Source: Actinomycetes bacterium
GTDB taxonomy: Bacteria > Actinomycetota > Actinomycetes > Mycobacteriales > Cryptosporangiaceae
NCBI GenBank assembly: GCA_025963185.1
Contig: JAOPVE010000303.1
Coordinates: forward strand, 1-46,431
Length of the DNA stretch: 46,431 nucleotides
Direction: 5' to 3'
The notes beneath the pieces were generated by a model. That model did no database searches, had not been told where the DNA came from, and was given only the letters and a program-made list of their open reading frames with translations. Of this stretch, positions 3,689-23,042 are shown in pieces; position 1 is the first letter of the stretch; each line of letters starts with the position of its first letter. Made by a program: the position numbers and the translations under genes.

Positions 3689-6312
3689 CGGTGCTCCCCC
3701 GGCGGATCGCCGAAGCTGATCGTCAGCTCGCCCTCGGCCATGTCCAGCCGGATCACCGAGCCGTCCAGGATCGTCCCGGCGAGCATCGCCCGCCCGAGCT
3801 TGGTCTCCACCTCCCTGGCGATGTACCGGCGCAGCGGCCGCGCCCCGTACACGGGGTCGTAGCCCTGCCGGGCGATGAAGCGGCGGGCGTCCTCGCTGAC
3901 TTCGAGCGCCATCCGCCGGCTGGAGAGCCGAAGCCGCAGGTCGTTGAACATCAGGTCCACGATCTGCTCGATCTCGTCCTGCGTGAGCGGCTTGAACAGC
4001 ACGATGTCGTCGAGCCGGTTGAGGAACTCGGGCCGGAAGTGCGCCCGCAGCTCAGCCATCACCAGATCGCGGCCCTCGGGCTTGATCTCCCCGGCCGGGG
4101 TGACGCCGTCGAGCAGGTACGGCGATCCGATGTTGGAGGTCATGATGATGACGGTGTTGCGGAAGTCGACGGTCCGGCCCTGCGCGTCCGTGAGGCGGCC
4201 GTCGTCGAGCACCTGGAGCAGCGTGTTGAACACGTCCGAATGGGCCTTCTCGACCTCGTCGAACAGCACGACCGAGTACGGCTTGCGGCGGACGGCCTCG
4301 GTGAGCTGGCCGCCCTCCTCATATCCCACGTATCCCGGCGGCGCCCCGACCAGGCGGCTCACGGTGTGCCGCTCCTGGTACTCGCTCATGTCGATCCGGA
4401 CCATGTTGTCCTCGGTGTCGAACAGCGCCTCGGCGAGCGCGCGGGCCAGCTCGGTCTTTCCCACCCCGGTCGGGCCCAGGAAGATGAACGAGCCGATCGG
4501 GCGCTTGGGATCCTTGATCCCGGCCCGGGCGCGGATGATCGCATCCGCCACGGCCTGGACCGCCTCGTCCTGCCCGATCACGCGGTAGTGCAGGATCTGG
4601 TCGAGCCGCAGCAGCTTCTCCCGCTCGCCCTCCTCCAGGCGGCTGACGGGGATCCCGGTCCAGCGGGAGACGATGTTCGCGATCTCGTCGATCGTCACCA
4701 CCTCGCGCAGCAGCCGCTTGCCGCCCTGCTTCGACGCGAGCTGTTCCTCCTCGCCGGCCAGCCGCCGCTCCAATTCGGCGAGCGTGCCGTAGCGCAGCTC
4801 CGCCGCGCGGTTCAGGTCGTAGCCGCGCTCGGCCTCCTCGGCCTCCCGGCGCACCTGCTCGATCTGCTGGCGCAGCTCCTGGACCTTGCGCAGGGCCTGC
4901 CGCTCGGCCTCCCACTGGGCCCGCAGCGCGCCGGCCTCCGCCCGCAGATCCGCGAGTTCCCTGCGCAGCTCGCCGAGGCGCTCCTTGCTGGCCGGATCGG
5001 GCTCTTTGGCGAGCGCCGCCTCCTCGATTTCGAGCCGGGTGACCCGCCGGGTCAGCTCGTCCAGTTCGGCGGGCATCGAGTCGATCTCGGTGCGCAGCAT
5101 CGCGCAGGCCTCGTCCACCAGGTCGATCGCCTTGTCGGGGAGGAACCGGTCGGAGATGTACCGGTGGCTCAGGGTCACGGCGGCGACGAGCGCGGTGTCC
5201 TGGATCTTGACCCCGTGGAACACCTCCAGCCGCTCCCGCAGGCCGCGCAGGATCGAGATCGCGTCCTCTTCGGACGGCTCGTCCACCACCACCGGCTGGA
5301 ACCGGCGCTCGAGCGCGGCGTCCTTCTCGATGTGCTTGCGGTACTCGTCCAGCGTCGTCGCGCCGATCATGTGCAGTTCGCCCCGGGCGAGCATCGGCTT
5401 GAGCATGTTTCCGGCGTCCATCGCGCCCTCGGCAGCACCGGCCCCGACCACGGTGTGCAGCTCGTCGACGAACAGCAGGATCCGGCCCTCGGCGGCGACC
5501 ACCTCGGTCAGCACGGCCTTGAGCCGCTCCTCGAACTCGCCCCGGTACTTGGCCCCGGCCACCAGCGAGCCCATGTCCAGGGCGAACACGGTCTTGTCCT
5601 TGAGCCCCTCCGGGACGTCCCCCTGGACGATCCGCTGGGCCAGCCCCTCGACGATCGCGGTCTTGCCGACCCCCGGATCGCCGATCAGCACCGGGTTGTT
5701 CTTGCTCTTGCGGGACAGGATCTGCACCACCCGGCGGATCTCCCCGTCCCGCCCGATCACCGGGTCGAGCTTGTCCTCGCGCGCGGCGGCCACCAGATCG
5801 CGGCCGTACTTGGCCAGGGCCTCGTAAGCCACCTCCGGCATCGCGGAGGTGACGCGCTGGTTCCCGCGGATCGTGGTGAGGGCCGCCAGGAACCGGTCGC
5901 GGGTCAGGCCCGCGTCGCGCAGGACCCGGCCGGCCGCGGTCTGCGGGCCCTCCTCGATCAGCGCGATGACCAGGTGCTCGACCGAGACGTAGTCGTCCTT
6001 GAGCCGCCTGGCCTCCCGGTCCGCGGTGTCGAGGAGGCGGGCGAGCCGCTGGGTGATGAACACCTTTCCCGGATCCGCGCCGGGGCCGGTCACCCGTGGG
6101 CGGCGTTCCAGTTCGGCCTCCAGGTCCGCCCTGATCCGCGCCGGATCGGCCCCGGCCGCCGACAGCAGCCGCGGGACGATCCCCTCGGGCTGGTCGAGGA
6201 GTGCGAGCAGCAGGTGCTCACCGTCCACCTCGGAGTGCCCGAACCGCAGCGCCTTGGTCTGCGCGTCGTGCAGGGCCTCCTGGGACTTCTGGGTCATCCG
6301 GTCGGCGTCCAC
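3685..6312 (-). CDS. clpB: ATP-dependent disaggregase ClpB
   Basis: The 875-residue protein is the usual ClpB length. It has an N-terminal Clp repeat domain (1-150), AAA+ module 1 with Walker A GDPGVGKT and Walker [10 protein letters not shown], a long charged coiled-coil middle domain (about 410-530, rich in E/R/L/A) and AAA+ module 2 with GPTGVGKT and [10 protein letters not shown]. ClpB works with DnaK, DnaJ and GrpE to extract polypeptides from aggregates, and all three partners are encoded just upstream. The start is taken as GTG at 6312 because [14 protein letters not shown] matches the typical ClpB N-terminus; an ATG at 6297 is the alternative. It begins one base after the cbpM stop. 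In many actinomycetes clpB is a separate locus, so its place in this operon is notable. Confidence 0.97.
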
Positions 6313-6313
6313 G

Positions 6314-6628
6314 TCACCCTCCCTGCCGTCGCCGCTGGGTCACCCTGACCGCGGCTTCCAGTTCGCTGATCCGGTCGAGCAGGTCGGCCACGAGGCCCAC
6401 CGCCGCGTAGTTGAGTGAGAAGCCGGCGCGCAGCCGCTGGATCCTCGCCAGGACGGCGAGCTGGGCCGGATCGAGCCAGAGTTCCCCGGCGGAGTCCGTG
6501 GTGGCTTCGAGCAGGCCGAGGGCGACGAGCCGGGGCACCAGGTCCGGGTGCATCCCCGCTGCCCTGGCGAAACCGTCGCGGTCGAGCAGCGGGCGGCCGC
6601 GGCCGATCCGCACCAGCGCGAAGCTCAT
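6314..6628 (-). CDS. cbpM: CbpM-like chaperone modulator (MerR-like fold)
   Basis: The 104-residue protein has a winged-helix-like N-terminal half ([25 protein letters not shown]) and a helical C-terminal half ending in a coiled segment ([17 protein letters not shown]). CbpM proteins bind the J-domain of CbpA-type DnaJ and modulate its action. The gene directly follows the zinc-finger-less dnaJ, overlapping it by ATGA. In Streptomyces the equivalent position after dnaJ is occupied by HspR, a MerR-family repressor. This protein is shorter and resembles CbpM more, so I call it a modulator; a role as a DNA-binding repressor of its own operon cannot be excluded from sequence alone. Confidence 0.75.
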
Positions 6629-7593
6629 CGGGACCCCCTCGGGTCGAAGGTGGACAGCCGGCCGAGCTCCTCGTAGGCCGTGCGCTCGGCGTCGCTGAGC
6701 GTGGGCGGGACCATGATCCTGGCTTCGGCGTACAGATCCCCCGGCTGGCCTTGGGGGTTGGGCATGCCCTTGCCGCGCAGCCGCAGCCGCCGCCCGCACG
6801 ACGTGCCCGGCGGCACGGTGACCTTCGCCTCGCCGCCCGGGATGTCGACCGGGACCCTGGCGCCGAGCGCCGCCTCGTGGGGAGCCAGCGGCAGCGTCAC
6901 CGTGATGTCCCTGCCCTCGACCCGGTACCGCGGGTGCGGCGCGAGCCGGACCACGAGGTACAGGTCGCCAGCCCCCGCGCCGTCGCTGCCTCGCCCGCCC
7001 TGGCCCGAGAGCCGGATCCGCTGCCCGTCGGTCACCCCCGGCGGGATCGTCACGTCGTAGGTGCGCTGGCCGTCCGGTCCGGTCAGGGTGATGGTCCGCT
7101 GGCCGCCGCGGTAGGCCTCCTCGACGCTCAGCTCGATCGCGGCCTCCTGGTCGGCGCCGGGGACGGGTCCCCAGCCCCGGCCACCGCCCCGGGCACCCCG
7201 CCCGGCCCGGCCGCGGAACATGCCGCCGAACAGGTCCTCGATGTCGATCCCCTCGGCGCCGAACCACTCGTCCGGGTCGCCGCCGGGCTGCGGGCCCGGC
7301 GCCGTCCGCCGCCCGCCGCCCCGTGCTTGTTGCGCCCGCGCCCAGGCGTCCGGGTCGGTGCCCTCGGGGACCTGCCTGAAGTTCGGCCCGAACGCGTCGT
7401 AGCGGCGGCGCTGCTCGGGATCCGAGAGCACGTCGTAGGCCTCGGCGACCTCCTTGAACCGGGCCTCCGCGCCGGGATCCTTGTTGACGTCCGGGTGGTA
7501 GGCCCTGGCCAGCTTGCGGTAGGCCCGCTGGATCTCGTCCTGGCTCGCGGTCCTCGGCACCCCCAGGGCCTCGTAGAAGTCCGTCGCGGCCAT
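6625..7593 (-). CDS. cbpA: DnaJ/CbpA-type co-chaperone without zinc finger
   Basis: The 322-residue J-domain protein has the HPD motif at 33-35 ([13 protein letters not shown]), a Gly/Arg-rich linker (about 75-145) and two DnaJ C-terminal substrate-binding barrels ([32 protein letters not shown]). The four CxxCxGxG zinc-finger repeats of DnaJ are missing, so it is a class II (CbpA-like) J-protein. It stimulates DnaK ATPase activity and delivers substrates. The ATG at 7593 overlaps the grpE stop by one base (TGATG), and cbpM follows with an ATGA overlap, so grpE, cbpA and cbpM are translationally coupled. The long upstream extension of the frame is non-homologous and was discarded. Confidence 0.93.
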
Positions 7594-12043: not shown

Positions 12044-12093
12044 GAAGCGCGGTAACTCCGGCCGGTCGGGACCGGCCGGAGTTACCGCACTTC
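12044..12093. repeat. Intergenic palindromic element, copy A (likely bidirectional terminator)
   Basis: A near-perfect inverted repeat has 24-base arms (one mismatch) separated by GG; the left arm begins GAAGCGCGGTAACTCC and the right arm ends GGAGTTACCGCACTTC. It lies between the converging LuxR-type and YibE/F genes and supplies the last codons and stop of the latter (GAA GTG CGG TAA). The same element recurs at 14478 and 29016, with a variant at 44874. A perfect GC-rich hairpin between convergent ends suggests transcription termination; no T-run follows. Confidence 0.8.
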
Positions 12094-13341
12094 CGAGGAG
12101 GTGGCGTGGCGGCCGCGGGTACGGGCCGGGGCTGCGGGGGTGGCGGCGTCCACGGGGGCGGTGGCGCGGGGCAGGCGGCTCGCGGCGAGGGCGGCGAGTG
12201 CCGTGGTGACCGGCACGGCGGCGATCAGCCCGAGAGTGCCAACCCCGCTGCGGACCAGTTCCTCGGCGATCTGCTGGCTCGTCAGAAGCTGCCCGAGCGG
12301 CTGGCTGGCCGCGGCGATGAGGATCAGGACTGGGAGCGAGGCCCCGGCGTAGGCCAGGATGATCGTGTTGATCACCGAGGCGATGTGCGCGCGCCCGACC
12401 CGGGTGGCCGCCCGGTACAGCTCGCGGAACCGGTACGCGGGATTGGCGGCCGCGAGTTCGGTGACCGTGACGGATTGGGTCACCGCCACGTCGTCGAGCA
12501 CCCCGAGCGATCCGATGACGATCCCAGCGAGCAGCAGGCCCTGCATGTTCACCCCGGCGAACGTGGTGCTCACGAACGTGGTGTCGTCACTGGACACGCC
12601 GGTCAGGTGCGCGGCCGCGGAGAACAGGGCGCCGAGCACGCCGGTCAGGACCAGGCTCACCAGGGTGCCCATGACCGCGATGGCCGTGGGCAGGTTGATC
12701 CCGTGGGTCAGGAACAACACCGAGAGCATGATCGCCGCGGATCCGGCGATGGCCACGAGCAGCGGTGACTCCCCCGCCAATATCGCCGGGACGATGAACA
12801 CGAGCAGCACCGCGAACGTCAGCGCGAGCCCGGCGAGCGCGCTGAGCCCCCGCCAGCGCCCGAACGCGATCACCGCGAGGGCGAACGCCGCCATGAGCGC
12901 CCACAGCGAGGTGGACCGCTGCTGGTCGATGATGTGGTAAGCACTCGCCGGATCGACGTCGGGCAGGTAGACGAGCACCACCGAGTCGCCGGGGGACACC
13001 TGCGGCGCTCCGGGGCCGAACGGGATCCCGGTCCTGATCCGGTGGCCAGAGTCCTTGCCGCTGGTCAGCCGGACCTGGACGTCGCCGCAGGTCTGGCCGT
13101 CCGGCGTGTCCCCGGGGGTGGCGGGCGGGCAGGCCGTGCGGGTGACCGACAGCACGTCGCCGTTGGCCTGCGTGGGCGCGGTGCCGAGGTCGGGCCGGTG
13201 CGCGGACGAGCCCGGCCACAGCCACACGAGCGCGACGAGGGTGAGCACCGCGCAGGGCACGAGGATCGCGGCGAGGACCGCCGCGGTGCGTCCCCGCAGC
13301 GGCGGCCCGGCGGATGCGTCGTGGGAGTGACTGTGGCCCAT
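12082..13341 (-). CDS. YibE/F-family membrane protein
   Basis: The 419-residue protein has a His-rich N-terminus (MGHSHSHD), one N-terminal membrane helix, an extracytoplasmic segment of about 100 residues and then seven or eight further helices (for example STSLWALMAAFALAVIAFGRW; GLLLAGIVIGSLGVLDDVAVTQ). The last matches the conserved YibE/F segment G.LG.L.DVAV.Q. The family has no settled function; transport of an unknown solute has been suggested. The start is the ATG at 13341, immediately before the HSHSH motif; the frame upstream is not conserved. The C-terminal residues EVR and the TAA stop come from intergenic palindrome copy A. The His-rich start and nearby Zur-type sites make a metal link possible, but no such site precedes this gene. 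Confidence 0.85.
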   Translation of the reverse strand: MGHSHSHDASAGPPLRGRTAAVLAAILVPCAVLTLVALVWLWPGSSAHRPDLGTAPTQANGDVLSVTRTACPPATPGDTPDGQTCGDVQVRLTSGKDSGHRIRTGIPFGPGAPQVSPGDSVVLVYLPDVDPASAYHIIDQQRSTSLWALMAAFALAVIAFGRWRGLSALAGLALTFAVLLVFIVPAILAGESPLLVAIAGSAAIMLSVLFLTHGINLPTAIAVMGTLVSLVLTGVLGALFSAAAHLTGVSSDDTTFVSTTFAGVNMQGLLLAGIVIGSLGVLDDVAVTQSVTVTELAAANPAYRFRELYRAATRVGRAHIASVINTIILAYAGASLPVLILIAAASQPLGQLLTSQQIAEELVRSGVGTLGLIAAVPVTTALAALAASRLPRATAPVDAATPAAPARTRGRHATSSEVR

Positions 13342-13977: not shown

Positions 13978-14379
13978 TCAGCAGTTCACCAGGTCCGGCG
14001 ACTGGTTGAGCAGCTGGGCGGGCACCGAGGTGAAGCGGGCGAGCGCGCCGTCGGCGTCCGCCCCCGCCGCGAACACGGCCACCCGGTGACAGTTCTGGAA
14101 CGCGATCCGGACCGCGAAGTGCCGTCCGAGCACGCCCCGGATCGCGTCGCTCGCCATCGCCCGCAGCAGTTGCGCCCGGTGCTGCTCCGACGGCGGCTCG
14201 GTGCGGTTGTCGGCGAAGATCCGGTCCTGCGGGTTCTGATCGCCGAGCTGCGCGGCGAGTCCCGCGACCAGGTCGTAGGCGTAGGGCAGCGACTCGCGGA
14301 CGCACTGGGCGAACTCGGCGTCGGTGACGTCGCCGGCCTCGGCTTTCTGGAGCAGGTCGGGCGCGACGGTGAGGGACAT
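13978..14379 (-). CDS. Conserved hypothetical protein under a putative Zur site
   Basis: The 133-residue soluble, mostly helical protein contains LPYAYDLVAGLAAQL, a central RAQLLRAMASDAIRGVLGRHF segment and a strongly motif-like FQNCHRVAVF, and ends NQSPDLVNC. I recall similar actinobacterial hypothetical proteins but no function. It has two cysteines plus histidines (NCHRV; terminal C) that could bind metal, which is only an inference. The ATG at 14379 is chosen over 14385 because GGGAG (14386-14390) is six bases upstream of the former and abuts the latter. A Zur-like palindrome lies 27-45 bases upstream of the start, so it is probably derepressed in zinc starvation together with the permease modules. 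Confidence 0.78.
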   Translation of the reverse strand: MSLTVAPDLLQKAEAGDVTDAEFAQCVRESLPYAYDLVAGLAAQLGDQNPQDRIFADNRTEPPSEQHRAQLLRAMASDAIRGVLGRHFAVRIAFQNCHRVAVFAAGADADGALARFTSVPAQLLNQSPDLVNC

Positions 14380-14405
14380 GGGCATCTCCCGTGATTCGAG
14401 TTATT

Positions 14406-14424
14406 GATAACGGTAATCATTACC
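14406..14424 (-). promoter_or_regulatory. Putative Zur box, site A
   Basis: GATAACGGTAATCATTACC includes the perfect palindrome GGTAAT-C-ATTACC and aligns with three other sites in the window (16449, 16498, 20071). Invariant positions across all four are GATAA, T at 9, C at 13 and TAC at 16-18. It ends 27 bases upstream of the ATG at 14379. AT-rich sequence is rare in this window, which makes these sites stand out. Confidence 0.7.
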
Positions 14425-14477
14425 AACCCTTACTCAGCAGTCAACGCCCCGGCGTGGTGACGCGCCGGCCTTGCTTC

Positions 14478-14539: not shown

Positions 14540-15277
14540 CTACTCGTACGGGTTCTCGGGGCGGGAGGTCAGGGTGGCGGTGGCCGCGTGGATCCGCGGT
14601 ACGGCCCGCGCCGGATCCCGCTCGGCGCTGGCGGTCCACGATCCGGTCACCGTGACCCAGGCGTCGGTGGCGAAGCTGCTCCGCGATCCGTCGACCTCGA
14701 CCTTGACGGTCCGGGCGTCGGCGGCGCAGCAGGTCAGAGTGGCGCGCGCGAGGTACCAGCCGCCTCCCGCCTGCGGCACCGCGAAGCCGGACAGGCGGAC
14801 GGTCCGGCCGCTCAGGGTGCGGCCCTGGTCCCAGGTGGCGCGCGCCGCGTAGTCCCGCACAAGCAGCGCCACGATGCCACCGGACCGCAGCGGCGCGAAC
14901 CGCAGGGACGCCGGCCTGGGCACCGTCGCCCCGGTGCGATTGGCCGCGTAGGACCCCAGTGGCGGCGGCGGGACCAGCAGGATCACCGCCATCGGGATCC
15001 CGAACAGCCACCCGGACCACGGTGCGCGTCCGCCGTGATCGTGCCCGTCATCGGCCCCAGCCTGACCCGGATCAGCCTGACCCGGATCAGCCTGCCGTGG
15101 GAACACCGCGTCGAGCAGGAAGCTCGCGAGCCCGAGGACGGTGACCCCGAGGGATGCCGCGACCAGGTACGGCTGGAGCGACGGCTTGACGTAGTTGAGG
15201 TACTCCCCGAACAGGGCGAGCCGCAGCATGATGACCCCGGCGACGGCCACGAAGACGCCCTGCACCTCCCGGCTCAC
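14540..15277 (-). CDS. TIGR03943/DUF1980-family permease partner, copy 1
   Basis: The 245-residue protein has two N-terminal membrane helices, a cytoplasmic loop, a third helix (WLFGIPMAVILLVPPPPLG) and an extracytoplasmic domain with the family motif T-C-C-A-A-D-A (GWYLARATLTCCAADARTVKV). It belongs to the partner family of COG0701 permeases (YcgQ-like). The GTG start overlaps the permease stop (GTGA), so the pair is translationally coupled. The paired cysteines are conserved in copy 2 (21169-21903). The loop holds an in-frame tandem repeat (QADPGQADPGQAG) and DDGHDHGG, which may bind metal. Zur-like sites upstream of the permease suggest a role in zinc acquisition or handling; the transported species is not established. 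Confidence 0.85.
   Translation of the reverse strand: MSREVQGVFVAVAGVIMLRLALFGEYLNYVKPSLQPYLVAASLGVTVLGLASFLLDAVFPRQADPGQADPGQAGADDGHDHGGRAPWSGWLFGIPMAVILLVPPPPLGSYAANRTGATVPRPASLRFAPLRSGGIVALLVRDYAARATWDQGRTLSGRTVRLSGFAVPQAGGGWYLARATLTCCAADARTVKVEVDGSRSSFATDAWVTVTGSWTASAERDPARAVPRIHAATATLTSRPENPYE
15058..15094. repeat. 15-bp in-frame tandem repeat in the TIGR03943-type gene
   Basis: CAGCCTGACCCGGAT occurs twice in tandem (15058-15072, 15073-15087), followed by the first seven bases of a third copy. On the coding strand it encodes repeated Gln-Ala-Asp-Pro-Gly in the cytoplasmic loop. Being a multiple of three, it can change length without frameshift. Confidence 0.85.
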
Positions 15278-16245
15278 AGCAGCACCGTTCCGGTGACGGC
15301 GGCGGCCACGACGGCGACCACGAAGACCATCGGCGCGAACCGGGTCGCGAACGCGCGGCCGAAGGTGGCCGACTGCAGGGCGATCAGCTTGAGGTCCACG
15401 ACCGGCCCGACGACGAGGAAGATCAGCCGGGCCGTCATCGGGAAACCGGCGAGGCTGGCCGCGACGAAGGCGTCCGCCTCGGAACACACCGCCAGCAGCA
15501 CCGCGAGCACGGCGAGGACCAGCGCCGACACCACGGGGATCCCGGCCACCGCGGTGATCCAGCCCGGCGGCACGGCCACGTTGAGGGTCGCCGCCATTGC
15601 CGCTCCGACCACGAGGAACCCACCGGCGTGCAGGAGGTCGTGCTGCACGGTGAGCCGGAAGGCCTCGGTGCCCGGCCGGGTGCCGCCGAACCGCCGCTGG
15701 GGGATCCGCAGCCAGCCCGGCCGCCCGAACCGCGCCCACAGCCAGCCCACCACCACGGCGGTGCCCAGCGAGGCGGCGAAACGCGCCAGAACCATGTTCG
15801 GGACCTGCGGAAACGCCACCGCCGTCGACACCAGCACCACCGGGTTGATCGCCGGGGCGGACAGCAGGAACGCCAGCGCGGCGGGCACGGTGACCCCGCG
15901 GGCGACCAGTCCCCCGGCGACCGGGACGGACGCGCACTCACACCCCGGCAGGATCGCGCCGGCCAGCCCCGCCGCCGGTACGGCGATCGCCGGGTGCCTC
16001 GGCAGCCGGGCGAACACCGAATCGGGCACGAACGCCGCGATCAGCCCGGACAGCACCACCCCGAGCACGAGGAACGGGAACGCCTGGACCACCACGGCGA
16101 TGAAGATCGTCGACCAGGTCTGCAGGGCGTGACTGCTCCCGCTCAGCAGGTAGTACGCGTTCGGGCCGACGAGCGCCGCGAGGATCGCCCCCATCACGAA
16201 CGTCAGCGCGGGCGGCCTGCGCAGCCGGCCGGTCACCTCGCTCAT
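15274..16245 (-). CDS. COG0701/DUF318-family permease, copy 1
   Basis: The 323-residue protein has about eight to nine membrane helices in two halves. It carries the family motif PGCECASVPVAGGLVARG followed by ALAFLLSAPAINPVVLV, and in the second half CSEADAFVAASL and GPVVDLKL. The buried Cys-x-Cys and Glu are typical of this family (YcgR-like, also related to arsenite-permease-like COG0701 proteins). It is clearly homologous to the permease at 20144-21172. The ATG at 16245 is followed by its coupled partner gene. Zur-like sites lie about 200-270 bases upstream, so this module is probably expressed when zinc is scarce. Direction and substrate of transport are unknown. Confidence 0.85.
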   Translation of the reverse strand: MSEVTGRLRRPPALTFVMGAILAALVGPNAYYLLSGSSHALQTWSTIFIAVVVQAFPFLVLGVVLSGLIAAFVPDSVFARLPRHPAIAVPAAGLAGAILPGCECASVPVAGGLVARGVTVPAALAFLLSAPAINPVVLVSTAVAFPQVPNMVLARFAASLGTAVVVGWLWARFGRPGWLRIPQRRFGGTRPGTEAFRLTVQHDLLHAGGFLVVGAAMAATLNVAVPPGWITAVAGIPVVSALVLAVLAVLLAVCSEADAFVAASLAGFPMTARLIFLVVGPVVDLKLIALQSATFGRAFATRFAPMVFVVAVVAAAVTGTVLL

Positions 16246-16448
16246 GTCCGCTCCCCAGTGCGTGCCGTGACGATCCCGGCGCGTGCCCCACCGCGGACGC
16301 TACCTGCACAAAGGCCGTCGGGCGCAGACCCGCAACGGTGGCGGCGCGCTCGGTGCCGGCGAACCCGGAGTCCGACCTCGGGGCACCTCCGGTGTAGCGC
16401 CTTCACCGTGCCGGTTCCGACGATCCCGTCGATGTCGCCGGGGGGACT

Positions 16449-16466
16449 GTAGTGAAAATAGTTATC
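16449..16466 (-). promoter_or_regulatory. Putative Zur box, site B1 (toward permease module 1)
   Basis: Read on the minus strand this is GATAACTATTTTCACTAC, matching the four-site consensus at every invariant position. It also overlaps TGAAA...TTTCA (16453-16472), an inverted repeat of the classical Zur/Fur style. It lies about 205 bases upstream of the permease start and 32 bases from site B2, so one intergenic region could control both directions. Confidence 0.65.
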
Positions 16467-16497
16467 GTTTCAGTAGACTCCGGGCACTTTGTGGTCC

Positions 16498-16515
16498 GAT
16501 AATCATTTCCGTTAC
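16498..16515 (+). promoter_or_regulatory. Putative Zur box, site B2 (toward HTH regulator)
   Basis: GATAATCATTTCCGTTAC matches the consensus shared with sites A, B1 and C. It ends 31 bases upstream of the GTG start of the HTH regulator, where it would overlap or abut the promoter and block it when Zur binds zinc. Confidence 0.68.
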
Positions 16516-16546
16516 TGACCTGTCCGGCTCGCTCGCGGAGGCACTG

Positions 16547-17494
16547 GTGGATCCCGCTGGCACGACGTCCGCGGATCCCAACCCCGCCGGCGATCCGGAT
16601 CCGGGGCAGCCCGCGTTCCACATCGCGCTGCGGGCGGCGATCGAGGCGCGCGGCCTGACGCTCGAGCGGCTCCACGTGCGGCTCGCCCAGCGCGGGATCC
16701 AGGTGTCGGCGGCGAGCCTGAGCTACTGGCAGCACGGCCGCACCAGGCCCGAGCGGCCGGACTCGCTGCGCGCGCTCGACGTCCTCGAAGAGGTGCTCGG
16801 CGTGGCCACCGGATCCCTGCGCTCGCTGCTCGGTCCCCGCCGGCCGCCCGGCCCGCGGAGCCTGCGGGGCACGGTGGCAGATCGCCCGGAGGAGCTCATG
16901 GGCGTCGGCGAGCCCCTGACCAGGCTGCTCGACCAGTTACCCCGGTCCCGCAACAACGACCTGGACCTGGTCAGCCAGCACGAGTGCGTGACCGTCGACG
17001 CCCACCGGCGGATCGCCGAGGTGTCGAGCACCGCCCTGGCCGCCGCACGGCGCGACGGCGTCGACCGGTACTACACCGTCTACCAGGGCGATCCGGGCTG
17101 TGACGTGCGCCGGATGGAGGTCGAGGCGGTCCGCGACTGCACGGTCGGGCGGGTGCTGCGCGACCCCGCCGCGGGACTGCTGGTGGGCGAACTGCTCCTC
17201 GGCTGGGAACTGGCCCGCGGCGATACCCACCTGTTCGGCTTCCGGATCACCGACGGCACGGCCGTGAGCACGATCCACAGCCACGGGTTCCGCTACCGGG
17301 TGAGCCAGTTCGTGCTGCAGGTGCGGTTCTCTGCGGCGGCCGTGCCGATCCGCGTGGACGGTTTTGCCCAGACCACATTGGACGGTGACCTCCGGCCCAC
17401 CGGCCAGCTCCACCTCACCCCCCACCACACCGCCCAGCTCGTGTGCAGCGACGCGGATCCCGGTGGCGCGGGCATCGCCTGGACCTGGGAGTGA
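16547..17494 (+). CDS. HTH-domain regulator, probably Zur-controlled
   Basis: The 315-residue soluble protein has an N-terminal XRE-like helix-turn-helix (ALRAAIEARGLTLERLHVRLAQRGIQVSAASLSYWQHGRTRPERPDSLRALDVLEEVLGV, about 25-85) and a C-terminal half (about 130-315) of mostly beta-strand character that I do not recognise, with several histidines (STIHSHGFRYRV; LTPHHTAQ). The GTG at 16547 is chosen because GGAG lies six bases upstream and the HTH begins shortly after; the longer frame runs through the Zur boxes and is unlikely. Site B2 just upstream suggests it is a second-tier regulator within the zinc response (inference). The C-terminal domain might bind a metal or small ligand. Confidence 0.75.
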   Translation: MDPAGTTSADPNPAGDPDPGQPAFHIALRAAIEARGLTLERLHVRLAQRGIQVSAASLSYWQHGRTRPERPDSLRALDVLEEVLGVATGSLRSLLGPRRPPGPRSLRGTVADRPEELMGVGEPLTRLLDQLPRSRNNDLDLVSQHECVTVDAHRRIAEVSSTALAAARRDGVDRYYTVYQGDPGCDVRRMEVEAVRDCTVGRVLRDPAAGLLVGELLLGWELARGDTHLFGFRITDGTAVSTIHSHGFRYRVSQFVLQVRFSAAAVPIRVDGFAQTTLDGDLRPTGQLHLTPHHTAQLVCSDADPGGAGIAWTWE

Positions 17495-17530
17495 CGGGCG
17501 GACCCCAAAACGACGCGAAGCGCCGTTAAG

Positions 17531-17550
17531 TGAACAGAAGGCGCTGTTCA
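17531..17550. promoter_or_regulatory. Perfect inverted repeat upstream of the subtilase
   Basis: TGAACAG-AAGGCG-CTGTTCA is a perfect 7+7 inverted repeat in the 179-base gap between the HTH gene and the secreted subtilase. It could be a weak terminator for the upstream gene or an operator for the downstream one. No T-run follows. Confidence 0.4.
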
Positions 17551-17673
17551 GGCGGCCCGGCGGTCCCGTATACCCCTTTCAGCACAGTCCGTCTCCACCG
17601 CGCTCTGTCTCCACCACCGTTCAGCCTGTCCCCCACCCGCAGCCTCCCCTATCCCTAGCCAGGAGGAATCGCC

Positions 17674-19308
17674 GTGACCGACTTAGTCCCTCGCCGGAGA
17701 TCCGTGCACACGCGCCAGCTGGCCGTGGTTACCGCGGCCGCCGCCACCGCTCTGCTCGCGACCGCCCTGCTCGCCGCCGCGCCCGCGATGGCCGCGCCAG
17801 CCGCGGCCCAGGGCGTCATCGTGAACGCCGGTGGCAGCGGCGCGATCCCGGACAGCTACATCGTCGTCCTCAAGAACTCGGCGTCCCTGCGCTCGGCCGC
17901 GAGCGTCACAGCCACCGCGGACGGGCTCGCCGGCCGCCACGGCGCCAAGGTCACCCGCACCTACCACTCGGCGCTCACCGGATTCGCCACGACGGTGAAC
18001 GAGGCCGGCGCCAAGGCGCTCGCGGCGGATCCGTCGGTCGCCATGGTCGAGCAGGACCACGCCGTGCACCTCGACGGCACCCAGGCCAGCCCGCCGTCCT
18101 GGGGCCTGGACCGGATCGACCAGCGCAACCTGCCGCTCGACAACTCGTACACGTACCCGACGACAGCGTCGAACGTGCACGCCTACATCATCGACACCGG
18201 CATCCGGCTGACCCACGTAGCATTCGCCGGCCGCGCGGTCTCCGGCCATGACTTTGTGGACAACGACAACGACGCCACCGACTGCCAGGGGCACGGAACG
18301 CATGTCGCCGGCACCGTCGGCAGCGCGGCCTACGGCGTCGCGAAGGGCGTCGCGCTGGTCGCCGTCCGGGTGCTCGACTGCCAGGGCAGCGGCACGGACG
18401 CCGGCGTCATCGCGGGCATCGACTGGGTGACCGCGAACGCGATCAAGCCGGCCGTGGCGAACATGAGCCTGGGCGGCAGCGCCAGCCCCACCCTCGACGC
18501 GGCCGTGGTCAAGTCGATCGCCGCGGGCATCACCTACGGCGTCGCGGCCGGCAACGGCGACGCCTTCGGCAACCCGGCCGACGCCTGCGGCGACTCACCC
18601 GCCCGGGTGCCCGCCGCGATCACCGTCGGCGCCACCCAGAGCAACGACGCCAAGGCCTCGTTCTCCAACTACGGCACCTGCCTAGACATCTTCGCCCCGG
18701 GCGTGAACATCACCTCGTCGTGGGGAACCAGCGACACCGGGACCAACACGATCAGCGGGACGTCGATGGCGACGCCGCACGTCGTGGGCGCGGCCGCGCT
18801 GGTGCTCTCCGCCCACCCGGACTACACCCCCGCCCAGGTGCGTGACCAGCTCGTCGCCGACGCCACCTCCGGCAAGGTCACCAGCCCGGGCACCGGATCC
18901 CCGAACAAGCTGCTCTTCGTCACCGGCAGCGGCACCACCCCGCCGCCGCCCCCGCCGCCGCCGGGCAAGTACTTCGAGAACACCGCGGACGTGCAGATCC
19001 CGGACGCCGGCGCTGCCGTCACCAGCTCGATCGCCGTCACCGGCATCACCGGGAACGCGCCTGCCGCCCTCGCAGTCGGCGTGCACATCAAGCACACCTA
19101 CATCGGTGACCTGGTCGTCGATCTCCTCGCGCCGGACGGCACGGTCTACAACCTCCAGAACCGCACCGGCGGCAGCACCGACAACATCGACCAGACGTAC
19201 CCGGTCAACGCCTCCTCCGAGGTCGCGAACGGCACCTGGAAGCTGCGGGTGCAGGACAAGGCCGCGATCGACACCGGCTACGTCGACTCGTTCAGCCTGC
19301 AGTTCTGA
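17674..19308 (+). CDS. Secreted S8 subtilisin-like protease with P-domain
   Basis: The 544-residue preproprotein has a long actinobacterial signal peptide (basic RRR, then an Ala/Leu-rich core ending AMAAPA near residue 40), an I9-type propeptide ([14 protein letters not shown]...), the S8 catalytic domain with Asp174 (YIIDTGI), His207 (GHGTHVAGT) and Ser364 (GTSMATPH), a poly-proline linker (about 424-431) and a C-terminal proprotein-convertase P-domain (about 435-544, [22 protein letters not shown]). It is exported, autoprocessed and acts as an extracellular endopeptidase. The GTG start is preceded by AGGAGG at good spacing. It sits between two Zur-linked genes but has no Zur-like site of its own. 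A very strong hairpin follows. Confidence 0.95.
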
Positions 19309-19312
19309 CCTC

Positions 19313-19358
19313 ACGTACCGGGCGCCCGGCGGATCCGCCCGCCGGGCGCCCGGTACGT
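19313..19358 (+). terminator. Strong terminator hairpin after the subtilase
   Basis: A perfect 20-base stem (left arm 19313-19332, right arm 19339-19358) has a six-base loop ATCCGC and begins five bases after the subtilase stop. Only two T residues follow, as is common for GC-rich actinobacterial terminators. Confidence 0.85.
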
Positions 19359-19579
19359 TCCCTGCGCCACGACGAGCCCGGAGGGCCCTGCCACCAGCAC
19401 GAACGCCGTAGCGGACCAGCGCCGCACCACCTCCACCATCATCGCGAAACCCCTGTTCACCAACTCGGGCACGCAAACCGACCGCGAACCGCGGCGACCA
19501 CCCGGTGCCGCAAGGGCGGTCCGGATCCGCCGGCGCAGTAGGGTCTTAGCGGAGCCAGAGGAGGATGGACGGTCTCGTG

Positions 19580-20017
19580 ATGAGCAGTGAAGCCGTGGAA
19601 TCGAAGAGCCGGTCGACGCGCCAGGCCGCCGCGATCGAGAGTGCGATGAGCGGTACCGAGGCCTTCCGGAGCGCCCAGGACGTCTACTCCGAGCTGCGCA
19701 GCCGGGGCGAGTCCGTGGGGCTGACGACCGTCTACCGCCGTCTGCAGGCGATGGCCGAGGCCGGATCGCTCGACATCCTCCAGCAGCCCGGCGGCGAGGT
19801 CCTCTACCGGCTGTGCAGCAGCGACCGGCACCACCACCACCTGGTCTGCCGGGTCTGCGGGCGCACGGTCGAGGTCGAGGGGCCTGGTGTCGAGACCTGG
19901 GCCCGCAAGGTCGCCGACCAGCACGGATTCGCGAACCTCGAACACACCCTCGAGCTGTTCGGCACCTGCCTCGACTGCGCCGCCGACGCCGCTCCCCCGG
20001 TGCGCGACGGCAGCTGA
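19580..20017 (+). CDS. zur: Zinc-responsive Fur-family repressor Zur
   Basis: The 145-residue protein has the Fur-family winged helix (AQDVYSELRSRGESVGLTTVYRRLQAMAEAG) and the metal-binding/dimerisation domain with an H-rich strand (SDRHHHHLVCRVCGRTVEVEG) and a closing C-x-x-C (GTCLDCAAD). The VGLTTVYR recognition helix and HHHHLVCR.CG arrangement are characteristic of actinobacterial Zur. It represses zinc-uptake genes when zinc is bound. AGGAGG at 19559-19564 abuts an ATG at 19565 and is 12 and 15 bases from GTG 19577 and ATG 19580, so the start is uncertain. It directly precedes permease module 2, and the four Zur-like sites within about 6 kb are its probable targets. Confidence 0.9.
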   Translation: MSSEAVESKSRSTRQAAAIESAMSGTEAFRSAQDVYSELRSRGESVGLTTVYRRLQAMAEAGSLDILQQPGGEVLYRLCSSDRHHHHLVCRVCGRTVEVEGPGVETWARKVADQHGFANLEHTLELFGTCLDCAADAAPPVRDGS

Positions 20018-20070
20018 GCCACCGGACTCGCCGGCCCGGGGGCCGAGGCCACGAGCGTGCGACCGGTACC

Positions 20071-20088
20071 GTAATGGAAACGGTTATC
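20071..20088 (-). promoter_or_regulatory. Putative Zur box, site C (permease module 2)
   Basis: GTAATGGAAACGGTTATC reads on the minus strand as GATAACCGTTTCCATTAC, matching sites A, B1 and B2 at all ten invariant positions. It ends 55 bases upstream of the GTG start of the second permease and 54 bases after the zur stop. Confidence 0.7.
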
Positions 20089-20143
20089 GGCCCACGTTCA
20101 GCCGCTGACCGGCGGTAGCTGGCGGAGGGATCGAGGACGTGTC

Positions 20144-21172
20144 GTGACGGCCGGCGAACACACCGAGATCGCCCACGGATCCGGCGCGCCCCCGGCCGGC
20201 GGAACCCCGGGAGCGGGATCGCGGTCCTGGGTGCGTCCGGTCGAGGTCCTCGCGGTGGTGCTGGTGCTGGCGCTCGTGAGCCGGGGCTGGATCGTCGGGC
20301 ATACCGGATCGGCGCGGGTGCAGAGCTGGCTGACGATCTTCGTGTCGATCGTGATCCAGGCGTCGCCGTTCGTGGTGCTGGGCACGGTGGTGTCGGCGGC
20401 GATCGCGGTGCTGGTGCCCCCGGCGTTCTTCGCCAGGGTGCTGCCCCGGCGCCCCGCCCTGGCGGTGTCAGTGGCGGCGTGCGCGGGAGTGGTGCTGCCG
20501 GGTTGTGAGTGCGGCTCGGTGCCGGTCGCCGGGGCGCTGGTCCGGCGGGGGGTGACCCCGGCCGCGGCGCTGGCGTTCCTGCTGTCGGCCCCGGCGATCA
20601 ACCCGGTGGTGCTGGTGGCGACCGCAGTCGCGTTCCCCGGCCGGCCCGTCATGGTGCTGGCCCGGCTCGGGGCGAGCCTGCTCACCGCGGTGGTGATGGG
20701 CTGGCTGTGGCTCTGGGCCGGCCGCGCGGACTGGTTCCGCCCACCCGCCCGCCCCGAGCTGGACGGGCTGTCCCGCCCGGCGGCGTTCCTGGCCGCGTGC
20801 CGCCACGACATGACCCAGGCAGGGGGCTTCCTGGTGATCGGCGCGATCACCGCGGCCACCATGAACGTCGCCGTCCCGCCCTCGTGGCTGCACACCGTCG
20901 CCGGGATGCCGATCGTGTCCGTGCTGGCCCTGGCGCTGCTCGCCGTGGTCCTGTCGATCTGCTCCGAGGCCGACGCGTTCGTCGCCGCCTCCCTCACCCA
21001 GTTCTCCCTGACCGCCCGGCTGGCGTTCCTCGTGGTCGGCCCGATGGTCGACCTCAAGCTGTTCGCGATGCAGGCCGGGGCATTCGGGCGCCGGTTCGCG
21101 ATCCGGTTCGCGCCCGCCACGTTCACCGTCGCGGTCCTGGCCGCCGCCGCGGTCGGGGCGCTGGCGTGGTGA
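20144..21172 (+). CDS. COG0701/DUF318-family permease, copy 2
   Basis: The 342-residue polytopic membrane protein is closely similar to the permease at 15274-16245. Shared motifs are PGCECGSVPVAGALVRRG, ALAFLLSAPAINPVVLV, CSEADAFVAASL and GPMVDLKLFAMQ. About 20 hydrophilic residues precede the first helix. The GTG start has GAGGA six bases upstream. The stop overlaps the start of its TIGR03943-type partner (GTGA), and a Zur-like site lies 55 bases upstream. The pair probably forms a membrane complex induced in zinc limitation; substrate and direction are unknown. Two diverged copies in one locus may differ in affinity, metal or assembly state (inference). Confidence 0.87.
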   Translation: MTAGEHTEIAHGSGAPPAGGTPGAGSRSWVRPVEVLAVVLVLALVSRGWIVGHTGSARVQSWLTIFVSIVIQASPFVVLGTVVSAAIAVLVPPAFFARVLPRRPALAVSVAACAGVVLPGCECGSVPVAGALVRRGVTPAAALAFLLSAPAINPVVLVATAVAFPGRPVMVLARLGASLLTAVVMGWLWLWAGRADWFRPPARPELDGLSRPAAFLAACRHDMTQAGGFLVIGAITAATMNVAVPPSWLHTVAGMPIVSVLALALLAVVLSICSEADAFVAASLTQFSLTARLAFLVVGPMVDLKLFAMQAGAFGRRFAIRFAPATFTVAVLAAAAVGALAW

Positions 21173-21903
21173 GCCGGCAGCTGCACGCGCTGATCCTCGG
21201 GCTGGCCGGCGGGGCGCTGGCCAGACTCGCGATCACCGGGGACAGCAGCCGGTACGTGCGGGCCGGACTGCGGCCCTACCTGATCGCCGCCGCCGCCGTA
21301 CTCGTGATCGTCGCGGTCGCCTCCCTCTGGTACCGGCCCGCACCCCAGCCGGACGGCGACCCGCACGAGCACGAGCACGCGCATGGGAACGGGCACGCGC
21401 ATGGGCGGTTCGACGTGGCCTGGCTGCTGGTGGTCCCCATGCTCACCGCCGTGCTCGTGGCCCCGCCCGCCCTGTCCTCGTTCTCGGCGTCCCGGTCCGG
21501 GACCGCGCTGTCGGCCGCCGCGAACTCGGCCATGCCGCCGCTGCCCGCCGGGGACCCCGTCCGAGTCTCGGTGCTGGAGTACGCCAGCCGCGCCGTCTAC
21601 GGCCATGGCACCTCCCTCACCGGCCGGCACCTCACCCTGTCCGGGTTCCTCGTCTCGGGCGGCCCCAACGGCTGGTACCTCACCCGCATGGTCATCACCT
21701 GCTGCGCCGCCGACGCCCAGCCCATCAAGGTCGGGCTCGACGGGGCGATCCCGGCCGGGCTGCACGCCGGGAACTGGATCGAAGCCACCGGCGCCTACAC
21801 CAGTCGCGTCGTCAAGGACAGCGTCAACGGCGAGGACATCCCCTTCCTGCAGGCCAGCACCGTCAAGCCGATCCCCGCCCCCGACCAGCAGTACGTGTCA
21901 TGA
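21169..21903 (+). CDS. TIGR03943/DUF1980-family permease partner, copy 2
   Basis: The 244-residue protein has two N-terminal helices, a histidine-rich loop (HEHEHAHGNGHAHG), a third helix and an extracytoplasmic domain with the conserved T-C-C-A-A-D-A motif (GWYLTRMVITCCAADAQPIKVGLDG). The His loop is richer than in copy 1 and is the type of sequence that binds zinc in transporters. The GTG at 21169 overlaps the permease stop, and the gene's own stop overlaps the ATG of the next gene (ATGA), so three genes are translationally coupled. The shared CC motif suggests a metal or thiol function for the outer domain (inference). Confidence 0.86.
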   Translation: MSRQLHALILGLAGGALARLAITGDSSRYVRAGLRPYLIAAAAVLVIVAVASLWYRPAPQPDGDPHEHEHAHGNGHAHGRFDVAWLLVVPMLTAVLVAPPALSSFSASRSGTALSAAANSAMPPLPAGDPVRVSVLEYASRAVYGHGTSLTGRHLTLSGFLVSGGPNGWYLTRMVITCCAADAQPIKVGLDGAIPAGLHAGNWIEATGAYTSRVVKDSVNGEDIPFLQASTVKPIPAPDQQYVS

Positions 21904-23042
21904 CCAGCACACTCACCACGCCCGTCGCGGACGTTGCCCGGCCCGTGCCCTGGCGGTCCAGAGCCGGGCTCGCCGCGGCCGCCGCCGGAATCGCCGCCGT
22001 GCTCGCCGCACCGGCCCCGCACCGCGCCCCCGCCACCGCGCCAGGACCAGCCCAGACCGGGCCACCCGCCCTCACGGACCGCTGGCCCGGAGCCCGGCCG
22101 TTCCCGATCCGGGCCGTGCTGCCCGGCGGGTTGTCCTACAGCCCGGAGCTGATCCTCGGCCCGTCGCTCACCGCCGGGCTCGCGACCAGTGCGGATCAGG
22201 AGCACCTCTCGGTCGCCGTCGCCCGGTCGGCCGGCCCGGCGCGGATCCTCCAGACCGACATCCCCGGCCTCTCCTCGTTCGACGCCCTCACGGCCAGCGG
22301 CGGATCGCTGTTCTGGATGCGCAGCCGCACCGACGAGTCCGGCCACCAGCACACCAGCCTGTGGACCGCCAGCCTGACCAGCGGATCCGCCCGCCAGCTC
22401 ACCACCGACGCGGGCGCACCGGAGTTCGGCGGCACCCGGTACTCCCTGCAGGCCGAGTCCGGCCACCTGCACTGGACCGGCGGCAATCCCGACGGCGCCG
22501 CGGCCACCACGCTCTACTCGATCGCGGTCACCGGGGGTGCGGTCACCACCCGCAAGATCCCCGGTGTCTGGCAGCTCTCGGCCTGGCCGTGGCTCACCAC
22601 CCCGCCGTCGCCCGGATCCGTGGTGACGCTGCTGAACGCGGTCACTGGCGAGCGCGTCGCGGTGCGGGCGCCCGCGGCCCAGATCACGGTGTGCGGCCCG
22701 GCCTGGTGCCGGATCAGCGCCGGCGACAGCGCGCAGCCACAGGACACCACGGTCATGCACCCCGACGGATCGGCCCGCAGGCGGATCGCCACCGGCGGGA
22801 CCACCGCGATCTCCGACGAGGTCGCCCTCGAAGGCCGGTTCGAGCCGCTCGGCGGGACGATCGACCCGAACGCCGTCACCGCCGCCACGGCGCTCACCCT
22901 CTACGACCTGCGCACCGGGCGCACCGTCATGGTGGATCCGGCGGCCACGGAGGCGCGGGCGTCCGGCGACTACCTGTGGTGGTCCAGCGGCGACAACGAG
23001 ACCCGCGCCTGGCACGGTCTCGACCTGCGCACTCTGCGCTGA
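21900..23042 (+). CDS. Exported protein of the Zur-linked operon, possible beta-propeller
   Basis: The 380-residue protein has a basic N-terminus, a hydrophobic Ala-rich segment (about 21-45, SRAGLAAAAAGIAAVLAAPAP) acting as signal or anchor, and a secreted domain with recurring beta-strand blades (SLFWMRSRTDESGHQHTSLWTASL; YSLQAESGHLHWTGGN; DYLWWSSGDNETRAWHGLDL). The W-rich strands at about 60-residue spacing resemble a six- or seven-bladed propeller, but I recognise no named family. The ATG overlaps the upstream TIGR03943-type gene by ATGA, so it belongs to the putative zinc module. It could be a periplasmic or surface subunit of the transporter. No counterpart accompanies permease copy 1. 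Confidence 0.72.
   Translation: MTSTLTTPVADVARPVPWRSRAGLAAAAAGIAAVLAAPAPHRAPATAPGPAQTGPPALTDRWPGARPFPIRAVLPGGLSYSPELILGPSLTAGLATSADQEHLSVAVARSAGPARILQTDIPGLSSFDALTASGGSLFWMRSRTDESGHQHTSLWTASLTSGSARQLTTDAGAPEFGGTRYSLQAESGHLHWTGGNPDGAAATTLYSIAVTGGAVTTRKIPGVWQLSAWPWLTTPPSPGSVVTLLNAVTGERVAVRAPAAQITVCGPAWCRISAGDSAQPQDTTVMHPDGSARRRIATGGTTAISDEVALEGRFEPLGGTIDPNAVTAATALTLYDLRTGRTVMVDPAATEARASGDYLWWSSGDNETRAWHGLDLRTLR

Follow-up and report, generated by a model that had tools for sequence, protein, structure and literature searches.

An apparently recurrent operon joining COG0701-TIGR03943 permease pairs with an exported, probable beta-propeller protein in actinobacteria

Pairs of a COG0701 permease and a TIGR03943 protein are widespread, and they have no settled function. 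The window, which is the whole stretch of 46,431 nucleotides analysed here, comes from a soil-type actinobacterium with a genome of 5.38 Mb and contains two such pairs, one of which runs on into a third gene for an exported protein. The locus raises the question of whether the third gene makes the pair a three-component system and, if so, what this system does. The features concerned are collected in Table 1.

Table 1. Genes and predicted Zur-box-like sites around the two permease pairs of the window
Feature	Position	Strand	Remark
Two overlapping predicted Zur-box-like sites	14405..14425	(.)	~20 bp upstream of SCO5389-family gene 13978-14385 (-)
TIGR03943 permease subunit, copy 1 (QADPG repeat, DDGHDHGG loop)	14540..15277	(-)	TIGR03943 133.8 bits
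COG0701/ArsP_1 permease, copy 1 (323 aa)	15274..16245	(-)	PF03773 146.5 bits
Predicted Zur-box-like site TGAAAATAGTTATCG	16453..16467	(+)	1 mismatch to published motif; between copy 1 and divergent gene 16547-17494
Second predicted Zur-box-like site CGGAAATGATTATCG	16497..16511	(-)	copy 1 / 16547-17494 intergenic region
zur, P0006 (Fur family, 150 aa)	19565..20017	(+)	nearest PDB sequences are Zur proteins
Predicted Zur-box-like site TGGAAACGGTTATCG	20075..20089	(+)	54 bp upstream of copy-2 permease start
COG0701/ArsP_1 permease, copy 2 (342 aa, GTG start)	20144..21172	(+)	PF03773 150.1 bits
TIGR03943 permease subunit, copy 2 (DUF1980 N+C; TCCAADA)	21169..21903	(+)	TIGR03943 159.8 bits
Third gene, P0005, exported or membrane-anchored probable beta-propeller (380 aa)	21900..23042	(+)	ATGA overlap; orthologue in L004

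Both permeases of the window score above the Pfam gathering score of PF03773 (32.3 bits) and both partners above the curated NCBIfam cut-off of TIGR03943 (88.8 bits), so all four belong to their families. In each copy the permease gene and the partner gene overlap by GTGA, and the motifs LPGCEC(A/G)SVPVAG and TCCAADA are present in both. The histidine loops of the TIGR03943 proteins differ, being QADPGQADPGQAGADDGHDHGG in copy 1, with its QADPG repeat and DDGHDHGG, and HEHEHAHGNGHAHG in copy 2. Copy 2 alone is followed by a third gene, which overlaps the TIGR03943 gene by ATGA. In these structural points the earlier note, which had been made from the letters of the sequence, was accurate. However, its description of the module as duplicated is wrong if a recent copy is meant. 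The permeases are 64% identical over 274 aa and the partners 34% over 247 aa, and the host genome contains four COG0701-TIGR03943 pairs. In a permease tree of 71 rows, copy 2 is the sister of the permease of L004, a locus from a soil MAG (support 100/99), and falls together with the two other copies of the genome in one clade of 14 rows (99/99); copy 1 lies outside this clade, apart on a long branch. A recent local duplication was therefore rejected, and the copies are deep paralogues. The 4-bp overlap was also discarded as a sign of special kinship, since most permease and TIGR03943 genes of the class overlap in this way (41 of 56 pairs in the class sample).

The gene directly upstream of the copy-2 operon is zur. 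Among PDB sequences its product comes closest to Zur of S. coelicolor (3mwm/7vo0; 6e-49), followed by FurB of M. tuberculosis (2o03; 3e-43). All Fur/PerR proteins trail these by over 20 orders of magnitude (next best 2.5e-18), and judged by these matches P0006 is a Zur orthologue. Using the published actinobacterial Zur motif taaTGaNAANNNTTNtCANta (quoted in PMC5472717) and allowing at most 2 mismatches, six matches were found in the window versus 1.2 expected, three of them at the promoters considered here. Across the genome, a motif drawn from the window itself matched 20 sites, whereas its reversed pattern, used as a control, matched 2. Four of the sites have at most 1 mismatch, and each of these precedes either one of these operons or znuA; as the window supplied the motif, independent support comes from the znuA sites only. 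The other two pairs of the host genome adjoin znuABC sets. In the class sample, 26 of the 78 pair loci have a zur or znu gene close by. A good Zur box, with at least 8 of 11 positions matching, precedes 11 of 56 pair permeases and about 6% of 548 other genes, so that such boxes are about three times commoner in front of the pairs. From gene neighbourhoods and predicted sites, the zinc link of the pairs proposed in the earlier note is well supported. Control by Zur is likely for the host genome, and for only part of the family. No Zur box was found at the other two operons with the three-gene order (L004 and L193), and the window is the only place where this exact form is linked to Zur.

Some of the predicted sites may serve other genes. 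The two sites in front of copy 1 (at 16453 and 16497) could belong to the divergent gene (16547-17494, (+)) instead, whose product of 315 aa has only a weak DUF6471 match. By its upstream boxes, the SCO5389-family / KH_NucS_shadow gene (13978-14425 with the boxes, (-)) is a candidate Zur target; it is not known in this role.

The earlier note had described the third product as an exported, possibly beta-propeller protein of a family it did not recognise, and this reading stands. Single-sequence searches of Pfam, NCBIfam and PDB with P0005 returned no match. Its signature is LWWSSGDNETxAWHxLDLRTL, and in the alignment of its family (A3) the pair C265/C270 is invariant, as are D289 and D336. When the profile of A3 was compared with PDB, the designed Kelch propeller SAKe (6e-7) and the propeller of DPP IV (0.0014) were matched. 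The structure models of P0005 and P0004 used the window and L004 proteins only and are poor (pLDDT 49 and 58); the AlphaFold model of P0005, built on two sequences and with pLDDT 49, shows repeated strands, and its top fold matches are propellers. Taken together, profile and model suggest that P0005 probably belongs to the beta-propeller fold class. Aerolysin-like PDB matches of P0004 were weak (E 0.006 and above) and were set aside.

A profile search of the class revealed a wide family of P0005 relatives. A sigma-factor gene lies just upstream in 32 of the 34 distant-relative loci, 23 of which have a 4-bp overlap, and six sampled sigma proteins all belong to the SigE family (TIGR02983). P0005 is homologous to the extracytoplasmic domain of these sigma-linked membrane propellers (single-sequence match, E 2.5e-10), with the same WPW motif, the C/C pair and an ATGA-type coupling to the upstream gene. 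It differs from them at the N-terminus and in its neighbourhood: the propeller of the SigE-linked proteins is preceded by a cytoplasmic segment of ~40 residues and a membrane helix, whereas this segment is absent from the window and L004 proteins, and there is no sigma gene directly upstream of the window third gene.

The close subfamily, with an ending of LWWSxGDNE..WH type, was found in 24 genomes. Three members are located in ATGA-coupled permease operons (window, L004 and L193), a count that is slightly favourable because L004 was found through its TIGR03943 protein. Two more are found at a distance of ~5-6 kb from a TIGR03943 gene. The remaining 19 are elsewhere; where their contexts were read, the neighbours are mostly HAD hydrolase, acyltransferase or folP genes, with no sigma or permease gene among them. 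Thus the third protein does not always adjoin COG0701-TIGR03943 pairs, a point that the earlier note had raised; it is not permease-specific, and by the distribution of its homologues it is a widely used surface domain of several contexts.

In the permease operons, the arrangement is constant. L004 encodes a 44% identical orthologue (P0007) at the same operon place with the same ATGA overlap, and the three-gene order and the ATGA coupling of the window recur in both L004 and L193, whose permeases fall with that of the window in the 14-row clade. A single clade of the permease-linked third proteins was rejected (AU p 0.015, with long branches and a group that was named after seeing the data), which disfavours a single origin without being final. 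The three-gene order therefore probably arose on two or more occasions, each of them involving a permease of the 14-row clade. This bears on the reading that the third gene encodes a promiscuous cell-surface propeller, a passenger or relocated sensor which is co-expressed behind the permease operon and does not work with the transporter. In favour of it are the HAD hydrolase, acyltransferase and folP neighbours of close relatives in other genera, the SigE-family sigma genes beside distant ones, and the rarity of the third gene in the genus of L193 (2 of 81 genomes). We nevertheless consider a passenger somewhat unlikely: in two or more lineages of separate origin the gene directly follows TIGR03943 with ATGA coupling, always with permeases of one clade, and the analogous exported propeller-like protein of f51 has this position in 49 of 50 genes checked.

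This second case comes from another actinobacterial family (f51), in which a different exported protein (alignment A4) directly follows TIGR03943. It has an Ig-like start and propeller-like repeats, and its profile matches WRAP-T propellers and prolyl oligopeptidase. The position after TIGR03943 was seen in 10 of 10 complete loci at first, and then in all 30 best matches and 19 of 20 weaker ones; the protein is present in 54 of 120 f51 genomes. Like the window protein, it is exported, propeller-like and directly downstream of permease and TIGR03943, and some of its loci lie near znu/zur, several in the order znuB, zur, permease, TIGR03943, propeller-like protein. However, there is no convincing homology between the two: hhalign gave a probability of 41% over 56 columns, and a common descent was not accepted. 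With the third gene in place in nearly every f51 case checked, the three-component system seems real and recurrent. Moreover, the open-access literature on TIGR03943, DUF1980, COG0701/COG3689 and UPF0718 yielded no description of a three-part system. The earlier idea of an undescribed, Zur-linked metal system of three components therefore holds in part: the operon recurs in L004 and L193, has an analogue in f51 and looks undescribed, but the third protein is not specific to these permeases and the Zur linkage of the three-gene form is confined to the window.

We propose, with about even confidence, that copy 2 and the third gene together make up a membrane transport module that responds to zinc and includes an exported accessory subunit; its transport function, its metal and direction, the docking and the regulation in vivo are what we infer. 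In this module the COG0701 permease would be the channel. The TIGR03943 protein, which combines three membrane helices with a His-rich loop and with a beta-domain carrying the TCCAAD cysteine pair, would deliver metal to the channel or take it over from there. The third protein would be a membrane-anchored beta-propeller outside the membrane, which may dock on the pair as a scaffold, gate or ligand-capture subunit. Zur would repress the operon when zinc is plentiful, and the module would most likely act in uptake or scavenging under zinc starvation. The 19 relatives of the third protein away from permeases and the lack of a Zur box in L004 and L193 weigh against this proposal, as do the poor structure models and, taken up below, the exporters among COG0701 proteins and the scarcity of shared histidines in the propeller. 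A broader version is more tentative, and we rate it somewhat below an even chance: COG0701-TIGR03943 would be a metal transport system to which several actinobacterial lineages independently added an exported propeller as the third subunit, drawing on families unrelated to each other. The window, L004 and L193 would have used the family shared with SigE partners, and f51 the Ig/propeller-like one.

The opposite direction of transport is conceivable as well. Under zinc starvation, the module might expel a competing metal or move thiol-metal complexes outward, and some COG0701 relatives of known function are indeed efflux proteins (NF033936 and SaoE, both matched weakly); the similarity to the Cu/Zn efflux family NF033936 is far below its cut-off. 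A box alone does not settle the direction, since Zur of S. coelicolor is able to activate an exporter (PMC5472717). Zur-type boxes together with co-location with znuABC importers fit uptake, and we regard export as unlikely.

Another candidate role for the propeller is that of a zinc metallochaperone, which would load zinc onto the TIGR03943 cysteines. The model for this is AztD of the AztABCD system, an exported beta-propeller zinc chaperone with a role in zinc transfer and His ligands at two zinc sites (PMC6689063). The window protein resembles it as an exported, probable beta-propeller near zinc transport genes; AztD works with an ABC transporter, whereas the window protein is joined to a COG0701 permease. 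P0005 and P0007 share H151, D365-N366-E367 and H372, which are rare or absent in the sigma-linked relatives. However, no AztD chain appeared among the PDB matches of P0005 or of the A3 profile, and the His ligands of the two AztD zinc sites have no conserved counterpart: there is no conserved triple-His site, and the histidines are few and mostly unshared, with only two (H151 and H372) common to P0005 and P0007. Membership in AztD was rejected on these grounds. With two shared histidines, zinc binding by the propeller has no sequence support and metal capture by it little, and a metallochaperone appears quite improbable.

Compared with the linked pairs already known, YcgR/YcgQ of B. subtilis, ScfAB of S. 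pyogenes and SMU.746-747 of S. mutans (PMC5584981), the pairs of the window consist of the same two gene families, and B. subtilis was matched by the TIGR03943 search as a control. The function is unsettled there too. These systems differ from copy 2 in that no exported third subunit has been described for them, and what has been reported ties them to ECF sigma factors, to acid stress or to virulence and not to Zur. If our proposal is right, transport is a further use of an extracellular domain that sigma-factor partners also have. The recurrence of propellers in zinc neighbourhoods would give a concrete handle on the pair, and since the three-gene operon is conserved in f51 genomes, a culturable member of this family could serve for a study of zinc uptake.

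Further genes were noticed around the pairs. Genes for YibE/F-like membrane proteins lie close downstream of TIGR03943 pairs in the window (12082-13341, (-), past the SCO5389-family gene) and in L146 (4379-5542, (-), with a gap of 3 bp). Secreted peptidases are encoded near pairs in the window (S8 family, 17704-19308) and in L119 (3846-5444, sedolisin-like by eye), and L038 has a gene for an unassigned 664-aa protein (4810-6804) between znuABC and the pair. Two f14 genomes (L204:1692-7145 and L205:3498-8390) contain TIGR03943, a metallophosphoesterase, an MFS transporter, a 299-aa exported protein and a relative of the third gene in a row. In L039 (G184:C266:29254-30696), one permease gene is followed by two tandem TIGR03943 genes.
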